Assembly: GCF_900177685.1 (NCBI RefSeq)
Contig: NZ_FXAY01000002.1
Span: forward strand, 682,001-746,000
Reading direction: 5' to 3'
DNA: 64,000 bases
Source of the DNA: Agreia pratensis
GTDB lineage: Bacteria; Actinomycetota; Actinomycetes; Actinomycetales; Microbacteriaceae
Part shown: positions 6,203-10,813 of the stretch, in pieces
How positions within the stretch are numbered: the first letter of the stretch is position 1
How the letters are laid out: each line of letters starts with the position of its first letter
The notes under the pieces: generated by a model
Told to the model about the DNA's origin: nothing
Database searches by the model: none
What the model saw: only the letters and a program-made list of their open reading frames with translations
Position numbers and translations under genes: made by a program

Positions 6203-8053
6203 ATGTGTGGAATCGTAGGTTATGTCGGTAACAACTCCAGTCTCGATGTACTGATGGGCGGGTTGGGTCGACTCGAATACCGAGGGTACGACTCCGCGGG
6301 CGTCGCGATCATCACCGAATCGGGCGAGCTGGTCACCCGCAAGCGGGCCGGCAAGCTGGCTGTCCTCGCCGCCGATCTCGAGGCATCCGCTCTCACCGAC
6401 GGCCGCACCGGCATCGGGCACACGCGCTGGGCAACCCATGGTGGGCCCACCGACGTGAACGCGCACCCGCACCTGAGTGCCGATGGTCGCATCGCGCTCA
6501 TCCACAACGGCATCATCGAGAACTTCGCCGGTCTCCGCGACGAACTGTTGGCCGACGGATACACCTTCGAGAGCGAGACCGACACCGAGGTCGCCGCCAA
6601 GCTCCTGGGCCGTGAGTACCTCGAGGGCGAGGGTGGCCTGGCCGCCGCGCTCGGCCGCGTCGTGGCACGTCTCGAGGGAGCCTTCACACTGCTGGCGCTT
6701 CACCAGGACGAGCCCGGCGTCGTCGTCGGTGCTCGCCGCAACTCCCCGCTCGTCATCGGCCTGGGCGACGGCGAGAACTTCCTCGGCTCCGACGTGGCCG
6801 CGTTCATCGAGCACACCCGCCGCGCGATGGAGATCGGACAGGATCAGATCGTCACGATCACTCCCGACTCCGTCTCGGTCACAGACTTCGCCGGCAACGG
6901 TGTCGAGGCTCACGAGTACGAGGTGTCGTGGGATGCCTCGGCCGTCGAGAAGGGCGGCTGGTCGAGCTTCATGGCGAAGGAGATCAGCGAGCAGCCCGAG
7001 GCCGTCTCCAACACCCTTCTGGGTCGCATCCACAACGACCACGTGGTTCTGGGCGAGCTCGAGGCAATCGACGAGCTGCTCACCGAGATCGACCGCATCG
7101 TGATCCTCGGATGTGGCACCGCGGCCTATTCGGCCATGCTCGGAAAGTACGCCATCGAGAAGTGGGCACGCATCCCGGTCGAGGTCGAGCTCTCGCACGA
7201 GTTCCGCTACCGCGACCCTGTGGTCAACGCATCGACGCTCGTGATCTCGATCAGCCAGTCCGGCGAGACCATGGACACTCTGGTGGCCGTGCAGGAGGCG
7301 AAGGCCAAGGGTGCTCGCACTCTGTCGATCTGCAACACGCAGGGCGCCACCATTCCGCGCGAGTCCGACGCCGTGATCTACACGCACGCCGGCCCCGAGG
7401 TCGCGGTCGCGTCGACCAAGGCCTTCATCGCTCAGATCACCGCGCTCTACCTCTTCGGTCTGCACCTCGCTCGTGTTCGCGCGACGCTCGACGACGAGAC
7501 CATCGCCACCTCGATCGTCGAGCTCCAGGCGATTCCCGACAAGATCCGTTGGGTGCTCGAGCAGCACGGCGAGATCACCGAGCTTGCGAACTGGATGAGC
7601 GACTCCCGTGCCGTGCTCTTCCTCGGCCGCCACGTCGGGTTCCCCGTCGCGCTGGAGGGCGCTCTGAAGCTCAAGGAGCTGGCGTACATCCACGCCGAGG
7701 GCTTCGCCGCTGGCGAGCTCAAGCATGGCCCGATCGCGCTGATCGAGCCGGGTCAGCCCGTGTTCGTCGTCGTGCCTAGTCCGCGCCACCCCAACTCGCT
7801 GCACGCCAAGGTCGTGTCGAACATCCAGGAGATCAAGGCTCGCGGCGCCAAGGTGCTCGCGATCGCCGAAGAGGGCGACGTCGCTGTGCTTCCGTACGCA
7901 TCAGATGTCTTCCGCATCCCGCTGGCGGGCCCGCTGTTCGAGCCGCTGCTCGCCGTCATCCCCCTGCAGATCTTCGCCATGGAACTCGCGACGGCCAAGG
8001 GACTCGACGTCGACCAGCCGCGCAACCTGGCCAAGTCCGTCACCGTCGAGTAG
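6203..8053 (+). CDS. glmS: Glutamine-fructose-6-phosphate aminotransferase (isomerizing)
   Basis: 616 residues. It makes glucosamine-6-phosphate from fructose-6-phosphate and glutamine, the entry step of amino-sugar and peptidoglycan synthesis. MCGIVGYVG places the catalytic cysteine at position 2, exposed after Met removal. A class II glutaminase domain (~1-220) with GHTRWATHG is followed by two SIS sugar-isomerase domains (~290-600) with [11 protein letters not shown] and ASTKAF, and the protein ends in LAKSVTVE, the typical C-terminus. I saw no glmS ribozyme in the short 5' region. Confidence 0.97.
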
Positions 8054-8062
8054 GTTTCGTCG

Positions 8063-8440
8063 GTGATCGTCGGCATCGGCGTCGACCTCGTCGACGTGCC
8101 TCGATTTGTGCGCTCGATCGATCGCACCCCGGGTCTCGTCGAGCGACTGTTCGCTGAGGGCGAACGCGGTCGTGCACCGCGCTCTCTCGCAGCGCGATTC
8201 GCCGCGAAGGAGGCGCTGATCAAGGCGCTCGGCGACTCGTCCGGGTTTCGCTGGCACGACATGGAAGTGGTGACCGATGACGACGGCAAGCCCTCGTTTC
8301 TGCTCGGTGGGCAGGTGGCCGAAACGGCTCGGGCTCGCGGCGTCGGGGCCATCCATCTCTCGCTCAGCCACGATGGCGACTCTGCATTCGCCTTCGTGAT
8401 CGCCGAGCGTGCCGAACAGAGTGGCAGCGCCGCGCGATGA
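8063..8440 (+). CDS. acpS: Holo-[acyl-carrier-protein] synthase
   Basis: 125 residues, normal for AcpS, which moves phosphopantetheine from CoA to acyl carrier protein. It opens MIVGIGVDLVDVPRF with the Mg-binding Asp8, and the second signature FAAKEALIKAL carries Glu50. It starts at GTG 8063, 9 bp after glmS, and its stop overlaps the alr start by 4 bp, so it is likely translated together with the genes that follow. CoA for this reaction depends on nearby coaA. Confidence 0.93.
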   Translation: MIVGIGVDLVDVPRFVRSIDRTPGLVERLFAEGERGRAPRSLAARFAAKEALIKALGDSSGFRWHDMEVVTDDDGKPSFLLGGQVAETARARGVGAIHLSLSHDGDSAFAFVIAERAEQSGSAAR

Positions 8441-9549
8441 CGACCCCCGATATCGGCACGACCTCGGCGCCCGACTCGGTCGCCACGATCGACCTCGCCG
8501 CAGTTCGTCACAACGTGGCCCGATTCGTCTCCCTCGCCGAGGGATCCCAGGTCATGACCGTCGTCAAGGCGAACGCGTACGGGCACGGCGCGGCCCCGAT
8601 CGCGCGTGCCGCACTCGACGGCGGAGCCACCTGGCTGGGCGTGGCCGATCTCGCTGAAGCTTTCGAGTTGAGGGATGCGGGAATCACGCAGCCCGTGCTC
8701 GCGTGGCTGCACGAGTCGCACGACGACTTCGCCGCAGCGATCGAGGCCGGCATCGACATCGGTGTGAGCGATCTCGGTCAGCTCACGTCGCTTGCCCATG
8801 CCCAGCGCGCTGTCGGGGGAGCCCCCGCGTCGGTGCACCTCAAGCTCGACACCGGTCTGGGACGCAACGGCGCAGACGAGTCGATCTGGGGCGCACTCTT
8901 CGACGAGGCGCGACGACGGGAGCTCTCCGGTCACGTGATCGTCAGGGGCATCTTCAGTCATCTCTCCAACGCTGACGACGACGAAGACGCGCGTCAGCTC
9001 GAGCGTCTGCATGTCGGCGTGGAGACCGCTCGACAGAGTGGTCTGCGGCCGCAGCTTCGGCATCTTGCCTCGACCGCCGCCGCGCTGCGATTGCCCGCCA
9101 CGCGGCTCGACCTCGTGCGTGTCGGCATCGGCGCATACGGACTGTCGCCTCTCGACCACGTGGGCTCTGCCGAACTCGATCTTCGCCCGGCGATGACTCT
9201 GCGCAGCACGATCGTCGCCGTCGCGCCGTCGTCCGACGCGGATTTCGTAGCCCGATCGGGCATCGTGCCCCTCGGCTACGGAGACGGTGTTCCTCCGCAG
9301 GCCGCAGGCCGCATCCACGTGACGGGCAGCGGCGGGCGATTTCTCGTGACGCGCATCGAATCCGACCACCTCGTCGTGGAGCCCGTCTCGGCTGGAACCG
9401 AGGTGGAACGCGGCGATCTCGTGACGCTGTTCGGTGATACGGCCGAGGGTGTCGCCTCCGCCGACGACTGGGCGCGGGCAGCCGACACGATCAACTACGA
9501 AATCGTCACTCGTCTGGGCGACCGGGTTGCCAGAGAGTTCATCGCATGA
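8437..9549 (+). CDS. alr: Alanine racemase, PLP-site subunit lacking the trans-donated catalytic tyrosine
   Basis: 370 residues with the fold-type III racemase layout. It keeps the PLP lysine in VVKANAYGHG (K44), plus R143, H175, H209, R228 in LVRVGIGAYG and Y354 in TINYE, equivalents of Geobacillus K39, R136, H166, H200, R219 and Y354. It lacks the segment VSYGATY holding the second catalytic base Y265: between VAV and PLGYGDG only 15 residues remain, about 11 fewer than expected. The CMDQ motif (M312, D313) is replaced by ESDH. In known racemases Y265, Y284 and M312 act in the partner's active site. The next gene, overlapping by 4 bp, supplies exactly those residues. Probably makes D-alanine only with that partner (inference). 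Confidence 0.88.
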   Translation: MTTPDIGTTSAPDSVATIDLAAVRHNVARFVSLAEGSQVMTVVKANAYGHGAAPIARAALDGGATWLGVADLAEAFELRDAGITQPVLAWLHESHDDFAAAIEAGIDIGVSDLGQLTSLAHAQRAVGGAPASVHLKLDTGLGRNGADESIWGALFDEARRRELSGHVIVRGIFSHLSNADDDEDARQLERLHVGVETARQSGLRPQLRHLASTAAALRLPATRLDLVRVGIGAYGLSPLDHVGSAELDLRPAMTLRSTIVAVAPSSDADFVARSGIVPLGYGDGVPPQAAGRIHVTGSGGRFLVTRIESDHLVVEPVSAGTEVERGDLVTLFGDTAEGVASADDWARAADTINYEIVTRLGDRVAREFIA

Positions 9550-10322
9550 GCCCGCTCGATTCCACTATCGACCCGACCGGCCTCGGCCGTGACGCCGCGA
9601 TCGACCTCGGCGTATTCCGCGCCAACGTGTCGATCCTCGCGGCTCGAGCCGTCGGCGGTCCGCTCGTGATCGACATGACCGCGGATGCGTATGGTCACGG
9701 ACTCGTTCGCCTCGCCCACGCCGCGGTGGAGTCCGGGGTCGACATTCTGAGCGTGCGCGATCAGGGGGACGCCCGGATGATCGCCGACGCCGGCATCGGA
9801 ATCGATGTGCGCTGCTGGCACACGTCGAGGTTCTCCATCCCGCCCGCGGGATCGGGCATCGCAGCGTTCGGTTTCGGTATGGAGCTCACCGACGGCGCGC
9901 CCGCCGGCATCGTTCCCGTGATGACCGTCTCCGCCCCGGTGCTCTCGGTCAAGAGGGTGCCGGAGGGGCACGGAGTCTCGTACGGATTCGTCTATCGGAC
10001 CCGGAAAGAGACCACCCTCGCGCTCGTTCCGCTCGGCTATGCAGACGGAATCCCACGCTCTGCGACAGGCTCGGGACGCATGGCGATCAACGGTCGCCAG
10101 TATCCGATCGCTGGACGCATCGCCATGGACCAGGTCGTGCTCGACGTGGGAGATGCGCCCGTGGTTCCGGGCGATCGCGCCATCGCATTCGGGCCAGGCC
10201 TAGAAGGAGAGCCGACCGCCGCGGATTGGGCGGAATGCTCCGGCTCGACGGCCGGCGAGATCCTCGCGCGTATAGGCCGTCGTGTTCCCCGCCGCTATAT
10301 CGACCGGGAGGTGGCGCGGTGA
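9546..10322 (+). CDS. Truncated alanine racemase paralogue lacking the PLP lysine but keeping the trans-acting residues
   Basis: 258 residues, ~110 shorter than Alr, with no frameshift. The N-terminus aligns as IDMTADAYGHG, so the PLP lysine is Thr45. The central barrel with the R136, H166, H200 and R219 equivalents is absent, and TINYE becomes STAGE (no Y354). The C-terminal domain is conserved: VSYGFVY (Y146, equivalent to catalytic Y265), PLGYADG (Y165, equivalent to Y284) and GRIAMDQ (M194/D195, equivalent to M312/D313). Alone it should not bind PLP or racemize. It overlaps alr by ATGA and tsaE by GTGA, indicating tight translational coupling. Likely an obligate partner of the upstream subunit (inference); a decaying duplicate is the alternative. 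Confidence 0.88.
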   Translation: MSPLDSTIDPTGLGRDAAIDLGVFRANVSILAARAVGGPLVIDMTADAYGHGLVRLAHAAVESGVDILSVRDQGDARMIADAGIGIDVRCWHTSRFSIPPAGSGIAAFGFGMELTDGAPAGIVPVMTVSAPVLSVKRVPEGHGVSYGFVYRTRKETTLALVPLGYADGIPRSATGSGRMAINGRQYPIAGRIAMDQVVLDVGDAPVVPGDRAIAFGPGLEGEPTAADWAECSGSTAGEILARIGRRVPRRYIDREVAR

Positions 10323-10813
10323 GCGCTCTGCACAGAGAACTCGTGATCGCGGATCCCGAGCAGATGGCGTCCCTCGCCCATGAGATGGCCGGGCTGCTCT
10401 CGGCCGGCGACGTGATTCTGCTCACCGGCGAGCTCGGCGCGGGCAAGACGACGTTCACGCGGGGTCTCGGCGAGGCGCTCGGGGTCCGCGGCGCGGTGAC
10501 GAGCCCCACCTTCGTCCTCGCCCGAACGCACCCCCGGTTGGATGCGGGCCAACCTCCGCTCGTGCATGTCGACGCCTACCGGCTCTCGAGCGCTGTCGAG
10601 CTCGATGACCTCGACATCGACTTCGACCGCTCCATCGTCGTTATCGAATGGGGCGCGGGCCTCGTCGAGGAACTCACCGACTCGTGGCTCTCGATCACCA
10701 TCGATCGGCCGCGCGGCGCATCCATTGATTCGGATGCCGAGGGCCGCGACGACGAGGAACCCATCGAACCACGCCGGGTCACCATCGACGGCGTCGGCCC
10801 ACGCTGGCAGTGA
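10319..10813 (+). CDS. tsaE: tRNA t6A biosynthesis ATPase TsaE
   Basis: 164 residues from GTG 10319, which overlaps the stop of the preceding gene in a GTGA junction. Walker A is GELGAGKTTFTRG at ~39-51, followed by the family block TSPTFVLARTH and a Walker-B-like VVIEWGAG. TsaE is the ATPase that cycles the TsaB-TsaD complex during threonylcarbamoyladenosine formation at tRNA A37. In-frame starts further upstream lie inside the racemase-like gene and were rejected. tsaB, rimI and tsaD follow. Confidence 0.93.
   Translation: MSALHRELVIADPEQMASLAHEMAGLLSAGDVILLTGELGAGKTTFTRGLGEALGVRGAVTSPTFVLARTHPRLDAGQPPLVHVDAYRLSSAVELDDLDIDFDRSIVVIEWGAGLVEELTDSWLSITIDRPRGASIDSDAEGRDDEEPIEPRRVTIDGVGPRWQ

Follow-up and report, generated by a model that had tools for sequence, protein, structure and literature searches.

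Alanine racemase, long studied as an antibacterial target, is a textbook example of a homodimer. Enzymes that combine an active subunit with a catalytically dead paralogue are described outside this family, as in the heterotetramer of deoxyhypusine synthase. The closest described systems, Alr and DadX (EC 5.1.1.1; S. lavendulae 1vfh, S. coelicolor 5fac), have a common fold, a lysine that binds pyridoxal 5'-phosphate (PLP) and an inter-subunit site with Tyr265' as second base, features that the gene pair presented here appears to share. As laid out in PMC3146814, the PLP lysine, Arg136, His166, Arg219, Ile352 and Tyr354 are contributed by one subunit and Tyr265', Tyr284', Arg290' and Arg309' by the other, and in PMC4517790 both members of the M312-D313 pair are assigned to the primed side (residue numbers such as K39, Y265 and Y354 are those of Geobacillus Alr). 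In these structural accounts both halves of the site lie on each chain of the homodimer (PMC3146814, PMC4517790). In contrast, a stretch of 64,000 nucleotides from Agreia pratensis (contig NZ_FXAY01000002.1, positions 682,001 to 746,000 of the forward strand; in the following, the window) holds two overlapping racemase genes with one half of the site per gene product, at the same glmS-acpS-tsaE locus at which single alr genes are found. These genes, here called alpha and beta, very probably specify the two subunits of a single alanine racemase, an obligate alpha-beta heteromer that has one active site. No description of a heteromeric or split alanine racemase was found in the open-licence PMC literature among the matches listed, and one may exist elsewhere.

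The alpha subunit (370 amino acids, positions 8437-9549) and the beta subunit (258 amino acids, positions 9546-10322) are both encoded on the + strand and were assigned from their open reading frames, Pfam matches and residues. According to the frame positions, the beta start and the alpha stop share an ATGA on the + strand (9546-9549), an overlap of 4 nt that presumably couples translation of the two subunits. Alpha has a full Ala_racemase_N domain (PF01168, profile 1-220 of 220, 206 bits), whose barrel carries the PLP lysine K44 together with R143, H175, H209 and R228. Its Ala_racemase_C domain (PF00842) begins only at profile position 33; T351, I352 and Y354 are kept, the whole VSYG segment with Tyr265 is gone, as are R290, the GR-motif glycine and M312. 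In beta, Ala_racemase_N is matched over 1-75 of 220 and Ala_racemase_C in full (1-127). Unlike ordinary Alr, beta has Thr45 in place of the PLP lysine and a barrel of only the first ~75 residues, the central barrel (~120 residues) being deleted, and its C-domain carries Y146 (=Y265), Y165 (=Y284), R171 (=R290), R191 (=R309) and M194/D195 (=M312/D313). Alpha passes the curated cut-off of TIGR00492 (232 vs 168 bits), and beta remains below it (127 bits). The PLP-lysine motif and the full N-terminal barrel are present in alpha and absent from beta, and the PLP lysine and the Tyr265-bearing C-domain are united only in the pair, never in one window chain. Within the C-domain, which occurs in both proteins, alpha and beta have each retained the residues of their own side, and the window alpha still carries three that belong to the other subunit. 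A preliminary description of this DNA had already reported the ATGA overlap, the residues K44, R143, H175, H209, R228 and Y354 of an alpha without a Y265 segment, and T45, Y146, Y165, M194 and D195 of a beta without a central barrel, all of which were found again. Its division of residues between subunits also agrees with the structures as given in PMC3146814 and PMC4517790, two papers that differ from each other on the entryway Ile.

The two proteins were folded separately (AlphaFold). For alpha, the model reached a predicted local distance difference test score (pLDDT) of 94.3 and a predicted template modelling score (pTM) of 0.91, and the closest PDB chain was S. lavendulae Alr 1vfh (template modelling score, TM, 0.91; 40% identity in Foldseek). 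The beta model (pLDDT 88.1, pTM 0.85) aligned to 1vfh with TM 0.86 and a root-mean-square deviation of 2.6 over 372 alignment columns and shows the first barrel strands and helices and the C-domain. Its confidence is low for residues 1-4, 94-96 and 113-116, the last two segments lying at the deletion.

The division of the site was then compared among relatives (G, C and L numbers denote genomes, contigs and loci). From a family sample of 120 genomes, 119 of them with a match, and from other Agreia genomes, 80 regions were fetched and 142 alr-like domains aligned. These regions include 46 loci at which a single alpha accompanies a single beta, seven of the window kind and 39 of a second, murT-linked kind. 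The 120-genome sample contributed 34 of these 39, a lower bound for that sample because not every genome with two scattered matches was fetched, and the murT-kind alpha of L078 is truncated at the end of its contig. A separate scan of named genomes gave 80 loci, the best of 585 relatives, 14 of which have a pair, all under titles that name Microbacteriaceae or genera of that family. Altogether 60 pairs were obtained, 56 of them different by alpha core sequence. Among these 56, K39 is found in 56/56 alphas but in no beta (0/56), and Y265 in 56/56 betas but in no alpha (0/56). R136 (56/56 alphas, 3/56 betas), H166 (56/56, 0/56), H200 (56/56, 1/56) and R219 (56/56, 2/56) are found on the side of alpha. 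The other-subunit residues gave counts of 1/56 alphas (L061) and 56/56 betas for M312, 2/56 and 56/56 for the GR glycine, 4/56 and 56/56 for R290, 14/56 and 53/56 for R309, 17/56 and 49/56 for Y284 (with Phe in the remaining seven betas), and 40/56 and 52/56 for D313. In the window-kind pairs, Ile352 and Tyr354, the latter the alanine-type substrate gate, occur in 7/7 alphas and 0/7 betas, though the C-domain is present in both. The K39/Y265 split is more than chance, since it recurs in 7/7 Agreia window-kind pairs and in 49/49 different murT-kind pairs. Across 230 alr-like rows, with fusion halves excluded, 110 have both K39 and Y265, 60 have K39 only, 60 have Y265 only and none has neither, and the same division was seen in all columns that are at least 93% conserved among 87 complete Tyr354 racemases (repeats included). 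The preliminary description had proposed a search of related genomes for the adjacent pair: K-plus/Y-minus and K-minus/Y-plus proteins stand together in 60/60 loci, no locus has one of the two kinds alone, and an alpha without a beta was seen in 0/60 loci with an alpha.

A second source of D-alanine was also looked for. In the window genome (99.9% complete), PF00842 gave four matches, which are the subunits of the window pair and of the second pair on contig 6, and PF01168 gave two further ones, read as YggS beside ftsZ and LysA beside hom; no separate complete alr was found by these two profile searches. Seven of eight Agreia genomes have exactly four PF00842 matches, which make up both pairs, and the two matches in G125, the eighth genome, belong to complete tandem genes. 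No other Ala_racemase_C match exists in the 7/7 Agreia genomes with the window pair, and a second complete alr was rejected on the PF00842 searches of the window genome and the other Agreia genomes. With PF01168, the same eight genomes gave no further strong match beyond the pairs or the tandem; the remainder is weak (at most 66 bits), with one extra weak match each in G121 and G122 (28 and 31 bits). A D-amino-acid transaminase above the curated cut-off was found in none of the 8/8 Agreia genomes. A gene of the D-Ala-D-Ala-ligase family is present in the window genome (219 bits), and a second ligase-like match of 136 bits lies at G000:C9:123567-124163.

From this residue partition, the lack of another alr and the lack of a lone alpha, the obligate heterodimer predicted in the preliminary description gains support. 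We infer the alpha-beta assembly, the single-site stoichiometry, the catalysis and the substrate as follows. Alpha would bind PLP on K44 and supply R143, H175, H209, R228 and the substrate gate Y354. The C-domain of beta would dock on the mouth of the alpha barrel, like the second subunit in ordinary Alr homodimers, and supply the second catalytic base Tyr146 (=Tyr265') as well as Tyr165, Arg171, Arg191, Met194 and Asp195. There would be one working site per alpha-beta dimer; alpha2 would be without the second base and beta2 without PLP, and a working homodimer of either is unlikely. The ATGA overlap may keep alpha and beta in step. With good confidence the product can be taken as D-Ala, because the genes occupy the alr locus, alpha has Tyr354 and no other alr was found.

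Some observations weigh against this proposal. The alpha and beta classes were defined by K39 and Y265; independent tests are provided by the remaining columns and by the strict 1:1 adjacency. The entryway Ile is primed in PMC4517790 and unprimed in PMC3146814, the latter being followed here. The losses had been described as falling exactly on the two sides of the site, which holds for the K39/Y265 division in all 56 pairs and holds only in part for the window alpha, where the Y284 equivalent, R309 and the Asp at 313 are retained (7/7 Agreia); in murT-kind alphas, Y284 occurs in 10/49, R309 in 7/49 and D313 in 33/49. Furthermore, there are class IV aminotransferases with scores under the cut-off (best 64 vs 277 bits), by which D-Ala could be made in another way.

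It might be argued that alpha is active by itself, as a homodimeric racemase or PLP enzyme with no need of Tyr265, and that beta is a regulatory or stabilising, non-catalytic partner. This would fit an alpha with a complete barrel and a score above the TIGR00492 cut-off, and dead paralogues that activate an active one have a precedent in the trypanosome AdoMetDC-prozyme system, which, as proposed for Agreia, went from homomer to obligate heteromer after gene duplication (as described in PMC5201418). That system is not of the Alr family and works, according to the same source, by relief of autoinhibition (PMC5201418), whereas the Agreia residue pattern is that of one shared site built by two chains. 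Y265, M312 and R290, all of the partner site, are kept in 56/56 betas and would be superfluous for a purely regulatory partner, and alphas are without Y265 in 56/56, M312 in 55/56 and R290 in 52/56 cases, so that a self-sufficient alpha is quite improbable. Another possibility is that the window pair acts on a different substrate and that the murT-linked pair or some other route provides D-Ala. The genome has two heteromeric racemases, their substrates are deduced solely from residue 354 and synteny, and beta appears to descend from an Asp354 racemase. On the other hand, the window alpha lies at the alr locus and shares Tyr354 with the complete alr1 genes found there, whereas 48/49 murT-kind alphas have Asp or Glu at 354; in a related alanine racemase with native Gln, Asp or Glu at this position lowered activity, as reported in PMC4517790. 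A different substrate of the window pair is thus improbable.

The loss of the PLP lysine and of about 120 barrel residues could also mean that beta is a pseudogene in decay, a copy left next to an alr that is itself partly damaged. The ratio of non-synonymous to synonymous substitution rates (dN/dS; Nei-Gojobori with Jukes-Cantor correction, window vs six other Agreia genomes) is 0.08-0.18 for beta, below the 0.15-0.29 of alpha. Both are under purifying selection, and beta is no relic, because of its dN/dS. Moreover, beta is open and overlaps alpha in 7/7 Agreia genomes with the window pair, the architecture is repeated in 49 further different pairs, and in five genomes beta is in one open frame with alpha. 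Decay is hardly credible and the pseudogene was rejected by dN/dS; a sequencing error was rejected as well, as seven genomes have the same split. The obligate alpha-beta enzyme is preferred to all of these explanations.

The preliminary description had not dealt with the second pair, natural fusions or the descent of the halves from two tandem racemases. At 14 fetched loci, four of them named and two being repeats by identical rows, two complete racemases lie in tandem at the alr locus (L047, L096-L104, L126, L128, L131, L157), alr1 with Tyr354 followed by alr2 with Asp, Glu or Ala at 354. They occur, among others, in G125 of the same genus and in Subtercola, Herbiconiux, Planctomonas and Frigoribacterium, and mixed dimers of alr1 and alr2 are possible. 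In focused careful trees, the N-domain of the window alpha groups with alr1, and grouping with alr2 was rejected (approximately unbiased (AU) test, p 0.0006); the C-domain of the window beta falls inside alr2 with support 100/96, and a clade with alr1 was rejected (AU p 0.03). Larger trees gave the same placement of both. Because of the focused trees, an alr1 origin of alpha and an alr2 origin of beta are favoured: the ancestor would have been a tandem of the complete paralogues alr1 (Tyr354) and alr2 (Asp354), from which alpha and beta arose, and the most fitting view of the window pair is an alr1-alr2 tandem whose order is unchanged and whose members have each lost what the other supplies. 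This descent is weakened by a weaker AU test, in which complete alr2 alone as a clade with beta outside stays unrejected (p 0.168), and by the larger quick trees, on which AU tests rejected nothing; in one set of these, constrained searches beat the free search in all three tests, and in a second set p was 0.393 and 0.066, again with nothing rejected, and they were dropped as evidence. With support 83/87 the murT-kind alpha joins the alr2 side, but a tree that keeps complete alr2 as a clade of its own was not rejected (p 0.245). The murT-kind beta is compatible both with a clade that includes alr2 (p 0.291) and with one that includes alr1 (p 0.218).

The second pair of the window genome directly follows murT and gatD (L007:1108-5070, G000:C6:337107-341069; Pfam MurT_C, Mur_ligase_M and GATase_3, with residue reading). 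Its order is beta then alpha, again with an ATGA overlap, and its alpha has Glu at the Tyr354 position. The closest named relatives of the locus, by best segment, are Agreia bicolorata VKM Ac-1804 (81% identity) and Agreia sp. Leaf283 (73%). Residue 354 is Asp in 24 and Glu in 24 of the 49 murT-kind alphas, the last one being cut off before this position. Among the named loci, Glu354 is found in 10/14 (both Agreia, all seven Microbacterium and one Microbacteriaceae bacterium) and Asp354 in 4/14 (Leifsonia aquatica, Pseudolysinimonas, Gulosibacter and one MAG). Of 39 murT-kind loci, murT was detected in 27 and gatD in 26; the other 12 have neither within the fetched stretch, a few stretches being short.

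The peptidoglycan of Agreia is described in PMC5945732 as type B2gamma, with L-DAB connected to D-Orn, and the cell therefore needs both D-Ala and D-Orn. Position 354 of Alr faces the substrate side chain (as stated in PMC4517790). Since Glu354 would do so here and peptidoglycan genes adjoin, the acidic residue makes a basic amino acid a reasonably likely substrate of the murT-linked pair, which is probably the racemase for D-ornithine or a similar diamino acid of the wall. The broad-specificity, lysine and serine racemases Bar, BsrV, lysine racemase 4dza and VanT have the same fold and likewise a substrate other than alanine, and unlike the Agreia pairs they are named in PDB lists as single racemase chains, a comparison made by names alone. 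Among the literature matches listed, no paper was found in which a racemase for the D-diamino acid of type-B peptidoglycan is named. Walls of Microbacterium contain D-Orn, L-Lys or DAB, depending on the species (according to PMC10757982), and Cryobacterium has DAB and a B2gamma wall (according to PMC7033078). The three Cryobacterium loci that were fetched (L140, L156, L191) have complete Tyr354 racemases only, which speaks against a simple rule that links the murT-linked pair to wall type.

In five other genomes of the family, natural alpha-beta single open frames of 669-796 codons were found at the alr locus (L080-L084), in which the alpha half has Y354 and the beta half is K-less with Y265. 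In four fusion genomes (G020, G100, G049, G119) the fusion frame accounts for all Ala_racemase_C matches of the genome. Two fusion genomes also contain frames of 363 and 395 codons with full-length Ala_racemase_N and no PF00842 (G049:C1:1119628-1120299 and G119:C1:1168504-1169175). Betas differ in length (INTERMEDIATES and fusions): the murT-kind betas L056 and L064 are nearly full length yet K-less, L053 and L058 are intermediate, and others, for example L068, L069, L071 and L073, extend scarcely beyond the C-domain. A start codon that allows a 4-nt overlap is present in 41 of the first 46 pairs.

Of the 149 genomes of the order that were searched, 139 lie outside the family of the window, 134 of them with an Ala_racemase_C match and at least 13 with two or more. 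No adjacent pair was found there among the matches listed, where an alpha below threshold could escape and single matches were not read for K39. Three of these 13 genomes, all of one other family, have single alr frames with an Ala_racemase_C match in two pieces that looks insertion-like (G199:C18, G227:C11, G254:C12). Complete racemases with His354 (L115, L118, L124) have neither glmS nor tsaE in the fetched stretch.

In the window, the gene order is glmS-acpS-alpha-beta-tsaE-tsaB with further genes, all on the + strand. The upstream neighbour glmS (6203-8053, +) marks the housekeeping alr locus and, like tsaB, was named by reading. Directly upstream of alpha lies acpS (8063-8440, +), with an ATGA overlap with the alpha start, and directly downstream of beta lies tsaE (10319-10813, +; start by reading, open frame 10226-10813), with a GTGA overlap with the beta stop. 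In the fetched stretches, glmS is present at 7/7 window-kind pairs, 5/5 fusions and 14/14 tandem loci, and tsaE in 25/26.

A common history of both pairs is proposed only tentatively and is rather doubtful as a whole. Alr1 and alr2 may first have combined in a mixed dimer whose two sites differed, and reciprocal decay may then have led to two single-site heteromers that took opposite halves: the window pair, with the alr1 barrel and the alr2 Tyr265 domain, for D-Ala, and the murT-linked pair, with an alr2-side barrel and a Tyr265 domain that is perhaps alr1-side, for the D-diamino acid of type-B2 peptidoglycan. The supply of D-Ala and D-Orn in Agreia would then depend wholly on split enzymes, with the diamino acid being read by Asp or Glu at 354.

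Agreia appears to make its cell-wall D-alanine with one site shared by two different, mutually dependent proteins, whereas the enzyme of other bacteria is built from one protein in two copies. The two-base mechanism has apparently had its catalytic bases divided between two genes, and each half-site could therefore be changed or titrated alone. The change is polarised, with complete tandem genes in one Agreia genome and split genes in seven others, and therefore offers a clean test of the route from homomer to obligate heteromer. The murT-linked sister pair is a candidate racemase for the D-diamino acid of type-B peptidoglycan.

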